From the IMG/VR virus record IMGVR_UViG_3300042691_036646, positions 1 through 20,475 of that record: a stretch of 20,475 nt of DNA; one strand, 5' to 3'. The DNA comes from a virus. A program made the translations under genes and the position numbers. The stretch's first letter is position 1. Every line of letters starts with the position of its first letter. Of this stretch, positions 3,705 to 15,216 are shown in pieces. The notes beneath the pieces were generated by a model, which saw nothing but the letters and a program-made list of their open reading frames with translations, had not been told where the DNA came from and searched no databases.

Positions 3705-3937
3705 CCCCACCTCAATTCAAAATACGTTAAATCTTTGTCAGTCAAGTCTGCTACAATAGAAATTTCATAACCGCACCAATCGGGATTGATATTAGTATAA
3801 AATATTGGTTTATCTATACTGTGACTCATTACCCAACTTCCCTTTTCTGTTTGTTGCCAATTCCAAATGGGTTCGGCAGCATACAGTTCGGGGTCTTCTA
3901 CATCGCTGAGTCTAAAACGATGAACACAGATTTTCAT
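3701..3937 (-). CDS. Small conserved phage protein between thyA and epimerase
   Basis: 78 residues, linked by ATGA overlaps to thyA upstream (3934-3937) and to the epimerase downstream (3701-3704). Tryptophan-rich, with EPIWNWQQTEKGSWVMSHS in the middle and a C-terminal YEISIVADL...TYFELRW pattern. The ending resembles that of the small protein at 9528-9845 (FAIYFAG...FTFFKLKW), so the two may be distant paralogs. No membrane segment, metal site or catalytic motif. Its position suggests only shared transcription with thyA. Function unknown. Confidence 0.7.
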   Translation of the reverse strand: MKICVHRFRLSDVEDPELYAAEPIWNWQQTEKGSWVMSHSIDKPIFYTNINPDWCGYEISIVADLTDKDLTYFELRWG

Positions 3938-4785
3938 ACAGCCATTTCGGCTCGAATAGGTGCATGACTTTGATAGTCCACTAATTCAATATCAGCCATT
4001 GTGAATTTGTCGATATCCTTAATCTTAGGATTGAGTCGTAAAGTTGGGGCAGGCAAGGGTTCGCGTGTTAGTTGTTCTTTAACCTGCTCTATGTGGTTGC
4101 TGTATATATGGGCGTCTCCTAGAACATGAACAAACTCACCTACATCTAAGTCACACACTTGTGCAATCATATGAGTGAGCAGTGAGTAGGATGCAATGTT
4201 AAAAGGTACACCTAAAAACATATCGCATGAACGCTGATACATTTGGCAACTCAACTTACCATCTGTTACATTAAACTGACTTAACACGTGACAAGGTGGC
4301 AGGGCCATGTCTTTTAATTCGCCTGGATTCCATGCTGTCAATATATGTCTTCGTCCGTGCGGGTCACGTTTGATATTTTCAATTAAGACTGACAGTTGAT
4401 CAACATTACTGCCCCATCTAGGTGATTCCCATTTACGCCATTGTACTCCGTAGATCCTTCCCAAGTCTCCAGGAAATTTAGATTTACTTTTCCAATAATC
4501 CGCTTCTGCATTAGCAGTCCAGATGGTAGTCTTTTCAGAGTTTTTATCGCCATGCAGTAGTTCCCTGAGTCTACGTTCGTCTCTTGATCCTTCAATAAAC
4601 CAAAGCAGTTCAGACACTACACTTCGCCAAGCTAGTTTCTTAGTTGTAACTGCAGGGAAACCTTTTGACAAATCATATCGTTGTTGCATACCGAAACAAC
4701 TTAATGTACCAACGCCTGTTCTATCAGTTTTTGATACCCCGTGATCTAAAACATACTGCAATGCATCTAAATAATTTTTTTCCAT
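3934..4785 (-). CDS. thyA: Thymidylate synthase ThyA
   Basis: Converts dUMP to dTMP using methylenetetrahydrofolate. 283 residues, close to the usual bacterial length. Visible marks: DRTGVGTLSCFG (21-32, folate/phosphate loop), the conserved RRHILTAWNP (145-154), LPPCHVLSQF (162-171) with nucleophile C165, QRSCDMFLGVPFNIASY (184-200) for dUMP binding, and LGDAHIYSNH (222-231). The C-terminus ends SHAPIRAEMAV, with the terminal hydrophobic residue expected for loop closure. It lies 12 nt downstream of DHFR, which regenerates its folate cofactor. No Shine-Dalgarno precedes the ATG; instead a TTGACA-17-TAAAAT promoter ends 6 nt before it, so mRNA may start almost at the ATG. Confidence 0.97.
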   Translation of the reverse strand: MEKNYLDALQYVLDHGVSKTDRTGVGTLSCFGMQQRYDLSKGFPAVTTKKLAWRSVVSELLWFIEGSRDERRLRELLHGDKNSEKTTIWTANAEADYWKSKSKFPGDLGRIYGVQWRKWESPRWGSNVDQLSVLIENIKRDPHGRRHILTAWNPGELKDMALPPCHVLSQFNVTDGKLSCQMYQRSCDMFLGVPFNIASYSLLTHMIAQVCDLDVGEFVHVLGDAHIYSNHIEQVKEQLTREPLPAPTLRLNPKIKDIDKFTMADIELVDYQSHAPIRAEMAV

Positions 4786-4791
4786 GCTATA

Positions 4792-4820
4792 ATTTTACTA
4801 TTTAGATTTAAAGATGTCAA
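4792..4820 (-). promoter_or_regulatory. Putative sigma70 promoter for thyA, possibly leaderless
   Basis: On the minus strand TTGACA (4820-4815), a 17-bp spacer, then TAAAAT (4797-4792). The -35 and spacer lie in the last codons of the DHFR gene and the -10 in the 12-nt gap. Transcription 6-7 bases after the -10 would begin at or next to the thyA ATG (4785). It lacks the GACAAATATTC block of the four promoters between 9045 and 11655. Because part is coding sequence, a chance match is possible. Confidence 0.5.
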
Positions 4821-7730: not shown

Positions 7731-9020
7731 TTACGCACCAGCAAGTTCCTTTGCCTTTTCATAAATAGCCCAAACACCAAAGGGAGGTTCTGCGTCCTGA
7801 TTGCCTTTGATAATAAAAACAGTATCGCAGTAATCGGGATCACCCCATGAATTGTAGGGCATGCCATCAGTAAACATAATGAATTTCTTAGGTTCAATAT
7901 TGTTTTCTTTCATGTATTCCCAATTTGCCATAAAGTCAGTGCCGCCGCCACCTTGGGGTTCATACTGACCAATATCTTCCAAGTTATCGCTGGAAAAACT
8001 TTGATGATTGTAAATCTCAGTGTCGAAACTCCACACTTGAATTTTATACTCATCATATGCTTCCATAATACCTTTGATTTCTCCGAGAAACGCTTTGATG
8101 TCTGCTTCACCGATACTGCCAGAAGTATCAATTGCAATACATACATCAATTTGAGTACCTGGTTTCATGCCGGGCATCACTGCATCCATATGCCAGCCTC
8201 GACGATTTGGGCGCATCCAACTAAAGTCATCTTTTACAGTAGACTGGATTTGTTGTTGCAGCAATTCACGCCAATTAACTACAGGTTTTGTCAGGTCCTT
8301 GATCAGACGTTTAACACCCGAGGGCAAATTACCAGCACCCACAGCCTGGGCGGCTTGCAACAGAGCCTCACGAACTTCATCTTTAATTTGACGACGTTCT
8401 TCTTCGCTCAGTTTTGGGCGGCCCTTACCACTACCATCAATGTCGCCATCTTCGCCACCACCTTCACCTTGGCCTTCGCCTTCAAGATGTTCATCCAACA
8501 TCTGTTCAAGCAAATCACTGATGTCAATTTTCTCTGCCTTTTCATAGAGATCGTCATAGACTTCCTCAGCACTCCAACCTTTGTATTTGGGATCATACAG
8601 GCAAGGGGTGATTTTGTCACCAATACGTTGCTCAATAAGGTCGGCATTTACACAATAGTCAGCAGCACAATTAAACAGACGTCGATCGCGGAAGTCACCG
8701 TTACGACCGATATGATCGTATACATTGTGCAGGACTTCGTGTCCAAACAGAAATTCAAGTTCACGGGGTTTGAGTTTGTTGACAAACTCGGTATTGTAAT
8801 AAAACTTGCGTCCGTCAGTGGCTGCAGTACCCAACCAATCATCTGCGTTCACTAGTTGTAGCCTTGTTGCAAGATTACCAAAAAACGGCGCCTTAAGCAA
8901 CAAACCGATTCGAGCAGTGACCAATTTTTCGCGCACCGCTGCATCAAGTTTTGGATCTACATGATCCGTCAACCGACCTGAAAGTTTGGGTTTAGATTTT
9001 TCGCTGTTAGTAGTAGTCAT
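7731..9020 (-). CDS. Metallopeptidase-like plus VWA-domain protein, partner of MoxR ATPase
   Basis: 429 residues in two domains. The N-terminal part (about 25-160) carries GHEVLHNVYDH, an HExxH zinc site at H94-H98, within the putative metallopeptidase domain found at the front of COG3864/DUF2201-type proteins. A Gly/Glu/Asp-rich linker (about 180-205) leads to a helical region and a VWA domain from about 288, with MIDAS residues DTSGS (298-302), T361 in GGGGTD and TDG (384-386). In bacteria such proteins pair with MoxR ATPases, which is the case here (gene ending at 9867). Role in phage unknown. It has a strong AGGAG site, its own consensus promoter, a terminator, and visibly higher G+C than its neighbours (one sampled line 50%). 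Confidence 0.9.
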   Translation of the reverse strand: MTTTNSEKSKPKLSGRLTDHVDPKLDAAVREKLVTARIGLLLKAPFFGNLATRLQLVNADDWLGTAATDGRKFYYNTEFVNKLKPRELEFLFGHEVLHNVYDHIGRNGDFRDRRLFNCAADYCVNADLIEQRIGDKITPCLYDPKYKGWSAEEVYDDLYEKAEKIDISDLLEQMLDEHLEGEGQGEGGGEDGDIDGSGKGRPKLSEEERRQIKDEVREALLQAAQAVGAGNLPSGVKRLIKDLTKPVVNWRELLQQQIQSTVKDDFSWMRPNRRGWHMDAVMPGMKPGTQIDVCIAIDTSGSIGEADIKAFLGEIKGIMEAYDEYKIQVWSFDTEIYNHQSFSSDNLEDIGQYEPQGGGGTDFMANWEYMKENNIEPKKFIMFTDGMPYNSWGDPDYCDTVFIIKGNQDAEPPFGVWAIYEKAKELAGA

Positions 9021-9044
9021 GCAGATCTCCTATACAATACCAAT

Positions 9045-9073
9045 ATTATAAAAAATATTGGAATATTTGTCAA
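9045..9073 (-). promoter_or_regulatory. Consensus sigma70 promoter with dyad operator before the VWA gene
   Basis: Minus strand TTGACA (9073-9068), 17-bp spacer, TATAAT (9050-9045): a full consensus match. The -35 contains the stop codon of the gene upstream. The spacer and -10 are spanned by an exact inverted repeat, CCAATATT-6-AATATTGG (9063-9042). The expected start near 9038 leaves a leader of roughly 18 nt holding AGGAG before the ATG at 9020. Confidence 0.85.
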
Positions 9074-9525
9074 GTTACTGTTTTAGGCAATTGTATATTG
9101 CCACGATATAAATTCACAAGAACATTATAGATATAACGATTTTTGCTAGTACCTACGTTATAGTTTTCCAACACAAATTGGTACTCTTCTGATTTAGATA
9201 ACATAAAGCGAACACGATTATATTCTACAACAACTTTCCAAGATCTACTGTATTCGTCTTTATATGTAAATTTTGAAACTTCATTCCATTTATATTTTGG
9301 AAATTCTTGTGATACTCTAGACCACAGCGATTTTGCAGCAGCAACATTAGTGTCGCGTTCTTTAGCAGAAACCAAGCGATCCAGTCTTCCACCAATACTG
9401 ATAAGGTCTTTACCAGTAAGACCGAGAAGTGTGGTATAACTAACTAACTGTCTTATTTGCTCTTGTTTTTCTGGAGAGAACCTTCTAAAGGTTAGATCCT
9501 CTTCTAACTGTTGATCTAGTTCCAT
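9070..9525 (-). CDS. Conserved hypothetical protein between MoxR and VWA genes
   Basis: 151 residues from the ATG at 9525, which lies 2 nt after the upstream stop; a GTG at 9537 would add four. The N-terminal half is helical (MELDQQLEEDLTFRRFSP, LLGLTGKDLISIGGRLDRL). The C-terminal half looks beta-rich and aromatic (SRSWKVVVEYNRVRFMLS, YNVGTSKNRYIYNVLVNLY). No catalytic motif. Its location between the ATPase and VWA genes hints at a link to that module, but it could be unrelated. Its stop codon lies within the -35 element of the VWA promoter. Confidence 0.7.
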   Translation of the reverse strand: MELDQQLEEDLTFRRFSPEKQEQIRQLVSYTTLLGLTGKDLISIGGRLDRLVSAKERDTNVAAAKSLWSRVSQEFPKYKWNEVSKFTYKDEYSRSWKVVVEYNRVRFMLSKSEEYQFVLENYNVGTSKNRYIYNVLVNLYRGNIQLPKTVT

Positions 9526-9527
9526 TT

Positions 9528-9845
9528 TTATAACCACTTTAATTTAAAAAAAGTAAATTCTTCTTCGCCTGCAAAATATATTGCAAATTCTTTTCTACCT
9601 TCAGTCACAAAGTGCCAAGCCCATTTACGAACGAAAGCATCATCTTTATCTGCCAGATAAATTAAAACATCACGTTCGTAACTACGCCCAAAAGAGTCCC
9701 AACACCAATCTCTTAATTCAACAAATTTCAAATAGCGTTCTTGAGTAGGCCCTGTAATTAGAACACGGAATTTAAAGTGTTTGTGTCCTGTAAACCTGAC
9801 GTCTAACTTTTGATAAACAAGAGAGGCATTCATTGTGAATCCCAT
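9528..9845 (-). CDS. Hypothetical protein with hairpin-covered start
   Basis: 105 residues, rich in Trp, Phe and Arg (LRDWCWDSFGRSYERDVLIYLADKD, FVRKWAWHF) and ending FAIYFAG...FTFFKLKW, resembling the end of the small protein at 3701-3937. Two in-frame ATGs exist: 9845 (MGFTMNAS) and 9833 (MNAS). Both, together with the GAGAGG ribosome-binding sequence, lie in the hairpin at 9819-9863 just after the MoxR gene, so translation from RNA reading through moxR should be restrained. Function unknown. Confidence 0.65.
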   Translation of the reverse strand: MGFTMNASLVYQKLDVRFTGHKHFKFRVLITGPTQERYLKFVELRDWCWDSFGRSYERDVLIYLADKDDAFVRKWAWHFVTEGRKEFAIYFAGEEEFTFFKLKWL

Positions 9846-9863
9846 AATATGAATGCCTCTCTT
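9819..9863 (-). promoter_or_regulatory. Long hairpin enclosing the RBS and start of the gene at 9845
   Basis: Plus-strand arms GAGAGGCATTCAT (9821-9833) and ATGAATGCCTCTC (9849-9861) are a perfect 13-bp inverted repeat, extended by two A-T pairs to 9819 and 9863, around a 15-nt loop. On the minus strand, one arm holds the GAGAGG ribosome-binding sequence, the loop holds the ATG at 9845, and the other arm begins with the ATG at 9833. It begins 3 nt after the MoxR stop, and the run after it (TTGTTTATC) is only partly T-rich. It may both weaken transcription and hide the start site, as hairpins do on early transcripts of some T4 late genes such as gene e. Confidence 0.75.
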
Positions 9864-9866
9864 TGT

Positions 9867-10976
9867 TTACTTCTGGCTAGCAGCCACGATGTACTTACCG
9901 AACCGCTTGTGGAACTCATCGAAGTGTTTGAGTTTGCCAGGAACAAACGGAAGGTTGTAAGTAGTCAACGCAACCCGTGCACCCATAACAGTCAGTTCAG
10001 TGGTAAAGTTATCCATCATGAACTTGAAGAAGTTATCCGCCATATCATGCCATTCTGCACTGATTTTGCCTGCTTCTTTCTTTGCAGCATCCTGCAGTTC
10101 GTAGCACATAGCGATAGTTAGACTGTACATAGCACTGATCTCTTTAACCTTGAGTTCCTTAACCTTGCCAGCAAGAATCTCTGAGGGCTTAGGCAGTTGC
10201 CCAGCAACTTTGCGATGTGCCATAAACTTAACAGCAACACCTTCACCCACAGCACCTGCCACAAGGTCAGTAAGATCCTCAGTACTGATATCTTCGTCCT
10301 TGAGCAGTTCGCTGACAAATGTCCAAGAACGGGGAGTAGCAAACGAACGGCTGGAACTACGCGGATCAAAATCGTAGAGATCCTGTTTGGCAAAACCTAC
10401 GTAGCCAACCACGTCTTTATGGATTTTGTTGGTAACGGCCCAAGTTTCCCAGCTGGAATGATCTACCCGCATTTCGATATGGACGAAACGATTAGCCAGC
10501 GGGGCAGGCATACGATAAGTAACACCCTTATCACTTTCACGGTTACCTGCGGCAATTACCACAACATTGTCTGGCAAAACATATTTGCCAATACGACGAT
10601 TCAATACCAATTGATATGCTGCTGCCTGAATGCTAGGAGCAGCACTGTTCAATTCGTCCATGAACAGAACCACATAGGGATATTGGCTAGCGAATTCTTC
10701 GTCGGGCAGATCGATGGGCGGAGCCCAATCCATTTTGCCCACATCTTTATTAAAGAAAGGAATACCACGCAGGTCAGTGGGTTCCATCTGCGCAAGACGC
10801 AGGTCGATAAATGCTGCACCCATTTCTTCAGCAACACCTGCAACAACTTCACTCTTGCCAATTCCTGGAGGACCCCACAGGAATACAGGACGCTTCTGTT
10901 TGAAGCAAGCAAGGATAATACGGCGGGCTGCAGTGGCAGTTACGGTACGATGTTCGGTAACGGTTTCTTTAGTCAT
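9867..10976 (-). CDS. MoxR-family AAA+ ATPase
   Basis: 369 residues. Walker A is GPPGIGKS (35-42), Walker B VVLFMDELNSAAP (102-114) with D107/E108, sensor 1 VVIAAGNRES (139-148) with N145, and RMPAPLANRFVHIEM (155-169) gives the conserved Arg near R163. This is the MoxR group (COG0714), whose members act as hexameric chaperone-like ATPases, usually with a VWA partner; here that partner lies two genes downstream. The ATG follows AAACAGGAGAG, a strong ribosome-binding site, and a dedicated promoter sits upstream. Base composition (one sampled line 50% G+C) is richer than flanking genes, perhaps from selection for high expression or from transfer. The function in the phage is unknown. Confidence 0.93.
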   Translation of the reverse strand: MTKETVTEHRTVTATAARRIILACFKQKRPVFLWGPPGIGKSEVVAGVAEEMGAAFIDLRLAQMEPTDLRGIPFFNKDVGKMDWAPPIDLPDEEFASQYPYVVLFMDELNSAAPSIQAAAYQLVLNRRIGKYVLPDNVVVIAAGNRESDKGVTYRMPAPLANRFVHIEMRVDHSSWETWAVTNKIHKDVVGYVGFAKQDLYDFDPRSSSRSFATPRSWTFVSELLKDEDISTEDLTDLVAGAVGEGVAVKFMAHRKVAGQLPKPSEILAGKVKELKVKEISAMYSLTIAMCYELQDAAKKEAGKISAEWHDMADNFFKFMMDNFTTELTVMGARVALTTYNLPFVPGKLKHFDEFHKRFGKYIVAASQK

Positions 10977-11007
10977 TTAGACTCTCCTGTTTAACGTTGA
11001 AAAAACA

Positions 11008-11036
11008 ATTTTAGTTGAAAAAAGAATATTTGTCTG
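11008..11036 (-). promoter_or_regulatory. Sigma70-type promoter before the MoxR gene
   Basis: Minus strand CAGACA (11036-11031), 17-bp spacer, TAAAAT (11013-11008). It shares the exact block GACAAATATTC with three other promoters in the window, although its -35 departs from TTGACA in two places. RNA starting near 11001 would give a leader of about 25 nt carrying the AGGAGA site. No dyad covers its -10, unlike the VWA promoter. Confidence 0.7.
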
Positions 11037-11039
11037 TTG

Positions 11040-11258
11040 TTATTCTGCAACAAGACTGGGACTGATAGTAAATTTTGCAAAAGAAATGTTATTATTCATA
11101 GTCTTGGCAGCGTTTTCTGCTAATTCACGGCTGGCAAATTCTGCTACAGTCTGTCCAAATCTTGCGTATTCGGAACCAAGATTTTCAAACCTGACCACAA
11201 CCCAGGCTGGGCTACGATCATCGTTGCCACAATCAAAACGGACTTCAAATTTGGACAT
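11040..11258 (-). CDS. Small hypothetical protein
   Basis: 72 residues. An N-terminal beta-like stretch (MSKFEVRFDCGNDDRSPAWVV) is followed by an Ala-rich helix (TVAEFASRELAENAAKTMN). The pattern, a strand then a helix with ASRELAENAAK, resembles small alpha/beta domains that count or pack residues rather than an enzyme, but I do not recognise the family. It has a GGAGAAA ribosome-binding site and its own full-consensus promoter, so it may be made strongly early in infection; it lies just upstream of the MoxR promoter. Confidence 0.65.
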   Translation of the reverse strand: MSKFEVRFDCGNDDRSPAWVVVRFENLGSEYARFGQTVAEFASRELAENAAKTMNNNISFAKFTISPSLVAE

Positions 11259-11292
11259 ATGCTTTCTCCGTGTTTGTATTTACTATACCAAT

Positions 11293-11321
11293 ATTATAAG
11301 AAATAATGGAATATTTGTCAA
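11293..11321 (-). promoter_or_regulatory. Consensus sigma70 promoter before the 72-residue gene
   Basis: Minus strand TTGACA (11321-11316), 17-bp spacer, TATAAT (11298-11293). The element begins directly after the stop codon of the upstream gene. It shares TTGACAAATATTCCA and the downstream ATTGGTA with the VWA promoter; the dyad over the spacer and -10 is present with one mismatch (CCATTATT against AATATTGG). Confidence 0.85.
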
Positions 11322-11597
11322 TCAAACAATTTCAAGCATGTTAGCAGGCACACGCCAACGCATCTGTCCTGCGTTAACTGTAACATACTTGACAGCAACC
11401 TTTTCCACAGTGCCCATTACCGTCTGTTGTCGCTTGCTAGAGTAGAACTTAACACGATCTCCGAGGGCAATACTGCGTTTAATTTCTTTAGACAGTTGGC
11501 TGCGCCTATACTTAACCGCCATAATCACACTGTCCAATTGTTCATTGGACAAACTACCAAACATGATTGCAGAGTTGATTTCTTGAATCGTTGCCAT
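11322..11597 (-). CDS. Small protein with SH3/KOW-like barrel at the C-terminus
   Basis: 91 residues. The N-terminal helices (INSAIMFGSLSNEQLDSVIM, residues 7-26, then AVKYRRSQLSKEIKRS) are joined to a beta segment, LGDRVKFYSS...MGTVEKVAVKYVTVNAG...WRVPANMLEIV. The G-D-x-V-x-F, G-T-V and W-x-V-P-x-x-M-L spacing looks like a small SH3/KOW-type barrel seen in phage and plasmid proteins that may bind RNA or DNA. Function is inferred from pattern only. It has its own promoter, and its stop abuts the next promoter. Confidence 0.7.
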   Translation of the reverse strand: MATIQEINSAIMFGSLSNEQLDSVIMAVKYRRSQLSKEIKRSIALGDRVKFYSSKRQQTVMGTVEKVAVKYVTVNAGQMRWRVPANMLEIV

Positions 11598-11626
11598 CTT
11601 GTATCCCGTTTGTTAAGTGTAGAGTA

Positions 11627-11655
11627 ATTTTACCAAATATTGGAATATTTGTCAA
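11627..11655 (-). promoter_or_regulatory. Sigma70-type promoter before the SH3-like gene
   Basis: Minus strand TTGACA (11655-11650), 17-bp spacer, TAAAAT (11632-11627). The -35 contains the stop codon of the upstream gene, as at the VWA promoter. The block TTGACAAATATTCCAATATTT is shared with the VWA promoter except at the spacer end, where CCAATATTTGG forms a shorter dyad. The leader to the ATG at 11597 would be about 20-25 nt. Confidence 0.8.
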
Positions 11656-12026
11656 CCGTTGGATCGTTCTAAATTGTTTAGATATGCCACTAAGTTTCCG
11701 TCCATGAGATTTATCATACTGGCTTCTTGTTCATCAAATACGACAAATTTTTCCGGCAATATAAAATACATACTATTAAAATACCTATCTAATTGCAATA
11801 CATTACGATTAGTCAAAGGAGGACTAATGTCAAATTTGTAAGATTGAATTTTTAATTCTTTAGAAACAAAGTTAAATCCTGACAGACTCAATCTAAGACT
11901 GTTAGGATCTTTGGGGTTATTCCATAATATATAGGGTAGTTGACTAGGATGCTTATCAACTATATCTGCAAAAATGCTGGTCAGTTGAGACTGTGTATAT
12001 AGTTTAGGGGAAGATTTTGTCGCCAC
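11652..12026 (-). CDS. Conserved phage protein, GTG start
   Basis: 124 residues; the start codon is GTG, with no better in-frame ATG nearby. It overlaps the upstream gene by 23 nt. Pattern: QLPYILWNNPKDPNSLRLSLSG, then ISPPLTNRNVLQLDRYFNSMYF, then KFVVFDEQEASMINLMDGNLVAYLNNLE, which looks like a compact alpha/beta domain. I recall this sequence type as a conserved hypothetical in cyanophage-like myoviruses, often beside a homolog of the upstream gene. No active-site motif; function unknown. Confidence 0.7.
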   Translation of the reverse strand: MATKSSPKLYTQSQLTSIFADIVDKHPSQLPYILWNNPKDPNSLRLSLSGFNFVSKELKIQSYKFDISPPLTNRNVLQLDRYFNSMYFILPEKFVVFDEQEASMINLMDGNLVAYLNNLERSNG

Positions 12027-13953: not shown

Positions 13954-14188
13954 TATTTTTTCCAAAGTGTTTATCCAGAATTTCTGCCCCTTGCTGCAGT
14001 ACTTTACCTGCAATATGCCCATGTTCATCTATGCAAGTTAAATCTGTAATCAATACAGTTTTGCACTCTTCGATGATAAGTTCTGCTACTCTTTCAATGT
14101 AAGCGGCCATCCATTGTTCTGGCTCAGCATTGTAACTGGCTTTTTCATTCCATGCCTGCAAGGCCAATCTATGTATTTCTTTGTTCAT
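13937..14188 (-). CDS. Small helical phage protein (F/V-x-E-L-I-x-E-C family)
   Basis: 83 residues: MNKEIHRLALQAWNEKAS, EQWMAAYIERVAELIIEECK, then a polar part (LTCIDEHGHIAGKVLQQGAE). The ERVAELIIEECK segment is the family's signature helix, as I recall it from many T4-type and other phage genomes. It begins at the last base of the exonuclease stop codon, so the two are coupled (1-nt overlap). Function unknown. Confidence 0.7.
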   Translation of the reverse strand: MNKEIHRLALQAWNEKASYNAEPEQWMAAYIERVAELIIEECKTVLITDLTCIDEHGHIAGKVLQQGAEILDKHFGKNNETTN

Positions 14189-15177
14189 TATTCGGGGTAT
14201 CCTGTGCTTAAAATTTCACCGATAGCATTACTGTTTTCACTCAATCTGTTTAATTCATATTTGCCACAAAATTTTAGAAATTGAGCACCCACCATGGGTT
14301 TGTTTTTGGCTTTACTGTTTTCTAAAATTGTTTTATCGATTATTTCTTTAATTTGTGTAGGTTGCGCAGTAAGATCGACTAGTTGTACATTTCTATTATA
14401 ATCGTCTAAAACTCTATGTTCGTGGCCATTATGATCAGTCCATCGCTGCAACATAAGGTTATTCCAATTAAATCCTTTACGACTCATGTCTTCGTATGCC
14501 TCCAATAAGCCCACTTTATTCTTACTACCTTTAGTGCGAACGCCTGGATACGCACTAAAAATATTATCGGTAGGATCGCCACGCATACATTTTTCAAAAA
14601 GGATAAATTTGGGATCTGGAATACGTTTTGGTTCTTTAGTTTTTTTGTCGATTACGGGCCGGCCCTTTTTATCAAAAATGCCTTCTATAGTGTGTAGTTC
14701 ATCTGCCACACCATTGTACTGATTTACATTACTGGCCAATAACTGATGAAAGTCCGTGTCGCTGCTGACAATAGTGTGATGATCATTAGGATGGTTGCGA
14801 ATAAAACCTGCAATTAGATCGTCTGCTTCTAATTGTTCATGCCGCAAAACAGTGCAATTAGTTTTTTCGACAAGAAAAGTTTTTAGATCGTCAAAGGCTT
14901 CCCAAAAAAGGCGATCTTCTTCTGCTTCTTTTTCAGTTAAGGCTGCTCTAGCAGCAGCACGATTGGCTTTGTATGGAGGATAAAAATCTTTACGCCAACT
15001 TCGACCTTCTAAACAGAATACGACATGATCGGCACGTTGATCACGCCATGCTTTGTTTACACTGGCCAGGGTTACATGAATTGCAAAACCTAGTTTGTCC
15101 CAAGTGTCACTTTGCCTATGGGCACTATGTCTTGCACGGAAAAAAGTATTTGCGGTGTCGACTATAAGGTATCTCAT
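14188..15177 (-). CDS. 5'-3' exonuclease / RNase H, FEN (PIN-like) family
   Basis: 329 residues of the family that includes T4 RNase H and the Pol I 5'-nuclease domain; removes RNA primers and 5' flaps during replication. Acidic metal ligands are where expected: D7 in MRYLIVDTANTFFRARH, EADD (117-120, with E117, D119 and D120), SSDTDF (138-143, D140, D142) and D201/D204 in RGDPTDNIFSAYPGV, followed by a helix-hairpin-helix-like TKGSKNKVGLLEAY (215-228). PPYKANR (67-73) matches the conserved clamp region. No ribosome-binding site precedes the ATG; a promoter sits so close that the mRNA may be nearly leaderless. Confidence 0.9.
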   Translation of the reverse strand: MRYLIVDTANTFFRARHSAHRQSDTWDKLGFAIHVTLASVNKAWRDQRADHVVFCLEGRSWRKDFYPPYKANRAAARAALTEKEAEEDRLFWEAFDDLKTFLVEKTNCTVLRHEQLEADDLIAGFIRNHPNDHHTIVSSDTDFHQLLASNVNQYNGVADELHTIEGIFDKKGRPVIDKKTKEPKRIPDPKFILFEKCMRGDPTDNIFSAYPGVRTKGSKNKVGLLEAYEDMSRKGFNWNNLMLQRWTDHNGHEHRVLDDYNRNVQLVDLTAQPTQIKEIIDKTILENSKAKNKPMVGAQFLKFCGKYELNRLSENSNAIGEILSTGYPE

Positions 15178-15186
15178 AATACCATA

Positions 15187-15216
15187 ATAATAGCATATAA
15201 TAAGTTAAATTGTCAA
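15187..15216 (-). promoter_or_regulatory. Putative promoter of the exonuclease gene, near-leaderless
   Basis: Minus strand TTGACA (15216-15211), 18-bp spacer, TATTAT (15192-15187), with TGC directly before it giving an extended -10. It overlaps the last codons of the SGNH gene and the 27-nt gap after it. Initiation about 7 nt beyond the -10 would fall within three bases of the ATG at 15177. It lacks the GACAAATATTC block. Confidence 0.55.

Follow-up and report, generated by a model that had tools for sequence, protein, structure and literature searches.

Four promoters of a T4-like jumbo phage fragment as likely copies of a dispersed promoter-leader cassette

Introduction

Why should four promoters on one short stretch of phage DNA, each standing before a different gene, resemble one another well beyond their -35 and -10 boxes? 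The question is raised by the IMG/VR record IMGVR_UViG_3300042691_036646, whose 20,475 bases are a genome fragment of a T4-like jumbo phage; the record was analyzed over its whole length and is called the window hereafter. A preliminary description of this DNA had interpreted four minus-strand elements between positions 9045 and 11655 as early host-type promoters controlled by a common regulator and spread by local duplication. The analysis reported here makes it likely that each of them represents one copy of a promoter-leader cassette, some 65 bp long, that is dispersed in a family of T4-like jumbo phages related to Pseudomonas phage PA5oct.

Four Promoters in a Fixed Register

Each base of the four elements was checked, and all of them lie where they had been placed, with spacers of exactly 17 bp. 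Together with two of their leaders, for which transcription starts (+1) are predicted, they are as follows (nt, nucleotides; ORF, open reading frame):

9045-9073, minus strand: promoter 1, TTGACA-17-TATAAT, spacer AATATTCCAATATTTTT; promoter of the VWA/DUF2201 gene at 7731-9020
9021-9044, minus strand: leader of promoter 1, ATTGGTATTGTATAGGAGATCTGC; predicted +1 at 9038, an A, 7 nt past the -10 box
11008-11036, minus strand: promoter 2, CAGACA-17-TAAAAT; promoter of the MoxR-type AAA ATPase gene at 9867-10976
11293-11321, minus strand: promoter 3, TTGACA-17-TATAAT, spacer AATATTCCATTATTTCT; promoter of a 72-aa ORF at 11040-11258
11259-11292, minus strand: leader of promoter 3, ATTGGTATAGTAAATACAAACACGGAGAAAGCAT, which of the window's leaders most resembles the cassette consensus; predicted +1 at 11286
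11627-11655, minus strand: promoter 4, TTGACA-17-TAAAAT, spacer AATATTCCAATATTTGG; promoter of a 91-aa ORF at 11322-11597

The word that they had been said to share, GACAAATATTC, indeed occurs exactly four times in the window and is confined to these promoters. Windows simulated with an order-2 Markov model held on average 0.037 exact copies of it and never more than one; some 11-mer or other reached four copies in 4 of 40 simulated windows, so that such repetition is not rare per se. The weight of the observation therefore lies in the fixed register of -35 box, 17 bp, -10 box and start codon 24-34 nt downstream, and not in the repetition of an 11-mer alone. Their hexamers are of the sigma70 type, with 11-12 matches out of 12 at three sites and 9 out of 12 at the fourth.

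The stop codon of the upstream ORF falls inside the -35 box at 9073 (TGA of ORF 9070-9537) and at 11655 (ORF 11652-12026), as previously remarked, and among related phages the TGA of TTGACA terminates the upstream ORF in 31 of the 103 cases in which such an ORF is identifiable; the cassettes are thus packed directly against genes. By frame alone, one third of the ORFs entering a -35 box would stop there.

The view that these are host-type promoters finds support. Consensus sigma70 boxes with the fixed 17-bp spacer persist before the corresponding genes of relatives, even where the proteins are no more than 55% identical. Searches for sigma70 region 2 (Sigma70_r2) and the RNA polymerase beta subunit (Rpb2_6) gave no match in seven relatives or in PA5oct while matching the control genomes, and the likely reader is therefore the host RNA polymerase with its housekeeping sigma factor. 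Similar searches for a T7-type RNA polymerase and for AsiA found no match in the control genomes and are hence uninformative.

A Cassette Multiplied Throughout the Genome

Is the repeated unit a bare promoter or something longer? The relatives, whose records are metagenomic and whose contigs come from freshwater sites, reveal a conserved unit of about 65 bp that comprises the promoter and the 5′ leader through the ribosome-binding site: pairwise identity between copies is high inside this unit and drops to background (about 0.25) just outside it. A related 79-kb record, G005, bears 13-14 copies, all on one strand and with the start codon about 30 nt past the -10 box (consensus GG-TTGACA-AATATTCCAWTATTTCt-TATAAT-ATTGGTAYAGTAAACAAAACGGAG), and its reversed sequence yielded zero cassette matches. 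All four promoters of the window are kept at the same genes in a 48.9-kb relative (G001), and five relatives of complete size (320-352 kb) contain 19-32 copies each. Counted at a single threshold, the copies numbered 13, 19, 23, 24, 29, and 32, with none in the reversed controls. Absence of the motif elsewhere in the genome was to have counted against the preliminary description; the relatives, with their many copies, show the opposite, the window's own record spanning only 20 kb. Of 120 exact 15-mer matches in viral contigs, many have no -10 box and are due to chance.

No protein encoded downstream of a copy has an intragenomic paralogue (0/103 in the thresholded set and 0/138 in the set of sites defined by their boxes only); it is therefore the promoter cassette that multiplied, not the gene. 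Duplication of genes carrying their own promoter is thereby ruled out. Spread by duplication, as first proposed, is supported, but not its local character, since 13-32 copies per record are distributed genome-wide before non-paralogous genes. Directly before a tRNA-gene-like sequence, gcgcctgtagctcagttggttagagcagtgg, lies a further cassette-like promoter (G009, position 126602, minus strand).

Dispersed promoter units before small genes of T4-like phages call to mind PeSLs (promoter early stem-loops), which by definition possess an upstream stem-loop terminator and are said to have been described by Arbiol in 2010 and Comeau in 2014. The copies would then be mobile units of promoter plus stem-loop terminator that mediate gene shuffling. 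However, a terminator-like stem lies upstream of only 11 of 140 copies, 129 being devoid of it, and there is no room for a terminator before most copies, since these touch the preceding ORF or run into it. A paper citing the original work presents PeSLs as repeated early-promoter units that are intergenic in T4-like phages and linked with gene shuffling (PMC4503421); given the rarity of upstream terminators, identity with them was rejected, and the explanation is very improbable.

Genome-Specific Versions of the Cassette

Each relative genome possesses its own version of the spacer and leader:

G021: TTGACC-AATAAATCCCATTTTGC-TATAAT-ACTTGTATAGTAATTAAAAAGGAG
G009: TTGACC/TTGCTC-GAAATTCCCAATTTTGC-TATAAT-ACTTGTATTGCAACAAAGGAG
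G020: TTGACA-ATAAWTGG..TTTGGGCG-TATAAT, two leaders
G008: TTGACA-ATAAATC.., two leaders
G022: TTGACC-AATAATTGCCATTCTGC-TATAAT-ATACACATAAACAGCAAACAGGAG

The promoter itself is retained at the VWA gene in all ten relatives scored and at the 91-aa gene in 6 of 8 relatives, and the orthologues of promoter 4 in G001, G008, G009, G013, and G021 each display the version of their own genome. At the 91-aa gene, for example, the window reads TTGACA-AATATTCCAATATTTGG, G021 TTGACC-AATAAATCCCATTTTGC, G009 TTGCTC-GAAATTCCAAAATTTGT, and G008 TTGACA-ATAAATCACTTTGGGTC. Among the sites defined by their boxes only, the nearest neighbor belongs to the same genome in 78 of 138 cases; 24 would be expected, and none of 2000 label shuffles exceeded 46.

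Two classes of leader coexist within each of the genomes G020 and G008 (L255-L271, L306-L323), namely AGAATCTTAGACAGTTA.. and AGATTCATACACTGAG.. in G020 and AGAATCTTAGACAGT.. and ACTTGTATTGA.. in G008, and they are combined with the same spacer types. Orthologues may switch class, e.g., G008_283872 and G020_86451. By analogy with the promoter classes of T5, the two leader classes of these genomes might be timing classes.

Several points weigh against copying within genomes as the source of this likeness. Mean identity among the box-only sites is modest (0.458 within the genome, 0.425 between orthologues and 0.376 otherwise), and within-genome identity exceeds that of the orthologue in only 43 of 75 pairs. 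Sites chosen with position weight matrices give a stronger genome-specific signal but a circular one, their figures being inflated because genome-specific profiles had selected them; the repeat with box-only sites shows a weaker own-genome effect, yet retains it. Strong selection exerted by the sigma preference of a particular host could likewise produce similar copies, only four copies come from the window itself, and the whole case for these phages is built on sequence.

In a rival explanation, the host sigma factor would have optimized each promoter independently, without any copying between loci. The promoters of phage T5 demonstrate that extended consensus promoters can be common within one genome, and the MoxR promoter shows a spacer under purifying selection by descent. 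Its deviant -35 box CAGACA and spacer nnnAnTC are kept across a broad clade (window 11008-11036, relatives L151-L168). Over 14 distinct, vertically inherited CAGACA promoters of MoxR genes, identity amounts to 0.76 at spacer positions 1-7 and 0.38 at positions 8-17, positions 4 (A) and 6 (T) being invariant, and the shared word is therefore partly under selection and not merely the result of recent copying. In the phages that bear CAGACA at this gene, other promoters have TTGACA. On the simplest reading, by analogy with T5, the spacer block would be recognized through an extended preference of sigma factor and RNA polymerase. Nevertheless, convergence would have to produce near-identical tracts of 50-60 bp, leader included, before unrelated genes (G005 52026 and 52267; nine copies in G021), as well as two or three leader classes per genome with orthologues that switch between them, and we judge it quite unlikely as the sole cause.

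The Dyad over the Spacer and -10 Box

Could a common regulator keep the sites alike instead? The preliminary description had pointed to dyads of the form CCAATATT-n6-AATATTGG across the spacer and -10 box of promoters 1 and 3. The dyads exist, but lie two bases to the left of the positions first given:

9040-9061: dyad 1, perfect, 22 bp, spanning the spacer and -10 box; clade-specific
11288-11309: dyad 2, an imperfect copy with one mismatched pair

In an operator-controlled regulon, a dimeric repressor of the phage or host would bind either the AATATTCCA block or the dyad formed by CCAATATT and AATATTGG, and this one protein would hold all sites to one sequence; in a variant, the asymmetric spacer block may serve as a monomer site. 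Conservation beyond the boxes would be accounted for, and co-evolution of the sites with a trans-acting factor could explain why each genome has its own version. The 22-bp dyad, however, occurs in the window's clade only. Once the consensus is taken into account, pairing between the arms does not exceed expectation, with 255 matched pairs over 50 clade sites vs. 245 after shuffling and P about 0.05 among copies that are mutually related, and spacer position 10, which varies between A and T, is not compensated by its partner (sp10 x ds2: A-T 14, T-T 8, A-A 2, T-A 1). A covariation scan of every dyad center in seven sets found none standing out at the promoter; the top value (z 3.5), the best among many centers tested, lies in the G020 leader. 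Moreover, the VWA promoter of G004, whose protein is 86% identical, has AACGG in place of the arm ATTGG, which breaks the dyad. Finally, many copies have a leader homogenized as far as the Shine-Dalgarno site, something that an operator would not need. Being confined to one clade, uncompensated, and broken in G004, the dyad lends no support to a shared repressor or to a common regulator acting through it, and it was rejected as an operator after arm shuffling and the covariation tests. An operator regulon in the wider sense is improbable, if somewhat less so than pure convergence. The dyad, which bears no mark of selection for symmetry, is most readily explained as a by-product of the AT-rich CC/GG words of the window's clade.

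A Leaderless Class of Transcripts

Not every promoter of this family is followed by a leader, as a further promoter of the window illustrates:

4792-4820, minus strand: thyA promoter, TTGACA-17-TAAAAT; gene at 3934-4785, with its ATG at 4785, 6 nt past the -10 box

The thyA mRNA of the window is accordingly predicted from its sequence to be leaderless. The window's ThyA aligns with E. coli-type ThyA chains from residue 3 (opposite chain residue 2), so its start is right. In 14 records and 78 other loci, each 17-bp promoter was followed downstream to the nearest ATG beginning an ORF of 50 aa or more, and the distances form two peaks, one at exactly 6 nt past the -10 box and one at 24-34 nt (mode 30). 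The first holds 74 cases, 33 in the 14 records and 41 in the 78 loci, whose gene content overlaps, so that the counts are not independent events; the reversed controls yielded totals of 6 and 1, with not one case at the 6-nt distance. Shine-Dalgarno words are present in 0/74 of the 6-nt class vs. 233/290 of the 24-34 nt class, and 4 of the 74 starts are possibly mis-assigned.

The 6-nt class is found in the window, G005, G008, G009, G013, G020-G022, and loci L155-L230, before thyA, the 5′-3′ exonuclease gene, GIY-YIG-like, DnaJ-like, and other genes; thyA and the exonuclease gene each belong to it in 12 records, and such orthologues carry the class across deep divergence. In the window itself, the exonuclease gene (14188-15216) has TTGACA-18-TATTAT and its ATG 9 nt past the -10 box, a near-leaderless arrangement, while the orthologues of 12 relatives have the 6-nt form. 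In PA5oct, none of the sites with an ATG 6 nt past the -10 box matched an annotated coding-sequence start.

Of 150 leadered promoters, 103 have an A as the seventh nucleotide after the -10 box, and the leaderless ATG begins at this same conserved A, which supports the assignment of +1; near the start, a change from ATA to ATG may be all that separates leadered from leaderless forms. Single cases of leaderless phage mRNA are known, such as lambda cI, and judged by sequence those described here look like a conserved second class of transcripts. A broader proposal, to which we give somewhat less than even weight, is that one promoter family would yield two classes of transcripts, leadered ones that begin AUA.. 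and carry a Shine-Dalgarno site and leaderless ones with ATG at +1 and no such site, that leader type would control translation during takeover, as the persistence of the leaderless form at orthologous genes suggests, and that all cassettes of a genome would be rewritten jointly.

Comparison with Known Systems

The closest known system is the set of early promoters of Escherichia phage T5 (PH207, P10-P16, and others). The annotated T5 promoters were extracted and aligned, giving aaaaat-TTGCTw-aatgCTTaaatTTCTg-TATAAT-ATatTcATAAATTgATGAGAG. Like the cassettes, they occur in many dispersed copies per genome, have a 17-bp spacer, show phage-specific conservation that covers the spacer and start region and continues through the leader to the Shine-Dalgarno site, and are dedicated to small genes and tRNAs. 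The early, pre-early, and late genes of T5 are all read by the host sigma70-RNA polymerase, and its promoter classes differ mainly in the discriminator (PMC7472727). The words themselves differ, however: T5 has TTGCTT/A, a spacer ..gCTTaaatTTCTg and the leader ATATTCATAAATTGATGAGAG, whereas the window phage has TTGACA AATATTCCA and ATTGGTATAGTAAAC. Replacement of cassette versions from genome to genome is seen in the relatives studied here, and no ATG stands at +1 in the 50 kb of T5 examined. Homology at the level of -35, spacer, and leader words was thus not found, and the T5 set is regarded as analogous.

The start-associated sequences (SAS/ESAS) of cluster K mycobacteriophages are similarly repeated just upstream of the start codons of unrelated genes, in one orientation and in subcluster-specific versions, but SAS lacks promoter boxes and measures only 13 bp, placed at the ribosome-binding site (PMC3203893); the unit described here is a complete promoter plus leader, of which the promoter is the most conserved part. 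PA5oct (Arenbergviridae) differs in turn, its TTGAC-18-TATAAT sites having no repeated spacer word.

Genomic Context of the Window

Almost all genes of the window lie on the minus strand and include thyA, DHFR, the MoxR-type ATPase and its VWA/DUF2201 partner, the 5′-3′ exonuclease, a queE-like radical SAM gene, and IMPDH/GMP-reductase. For the metallopeptidase-like VWA/DUF2201 protein encoded at 7731-9020, PHROG 1314 bears the label HNH endonuclease vs. DUF2201_N + DUF2201 in Pfam, and the PHROG label looks wrong. Judged by the ATPase, the annotated phages nearest to the window are the PA5oct group (46% identity), and a stretch of PA5oct resembles the window in having queE, an RNase H-type exonuclease, and the ATPase together. 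No close DNA relative was found in the phage collection, scans of the window for Rfam families and tRNA genes returned nothing, and the 27-nt core had no match in the GTDB species collection, so that no host can be named from it.

Proposed Mechanism and Significance

On the reading that we consider likely, that of a dispersed promoter-leader cassette, host RNA polymerase with its housekeeping sigma factor would recognize TTGAC(A/C)-17-TATAAT and start transcription on an A seven nt past the -10 box, giving a short leader that would end in a Shine-Dalgarno site about 30 nt past the -10 box. Single small genes would each gain their own strong promoter and would probably be handed one by one to the host RNA polymerase; the early timing first proposed is probable, by inference only. 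Recombination, by cassette copying or gene conversion, would spread the copies and keep them alike within a genome, which may be why spacer and leader versions differ from phage to phage. The first half of the spacer (nnnAnTC, then CC) and the start region may also be selected as extended promoter elements, as in T5.

The cassettes would provide a sequence-defined set of likely host-polymerase promoters in uncultivated jumbo phages, from which independently expressed small genes could be picked from DNA. Their replacement at orthologous genes, genome by genome, constitutes a natural experiment on the homogenization of regulatory sequences in phages. If true, the class with ATG at +1 would stand out among conserved sets of leaderless phage genes by its unusual size, and would open to testing the question of why a ribosome-binding site is missing from thyA and the exonuclease gene.

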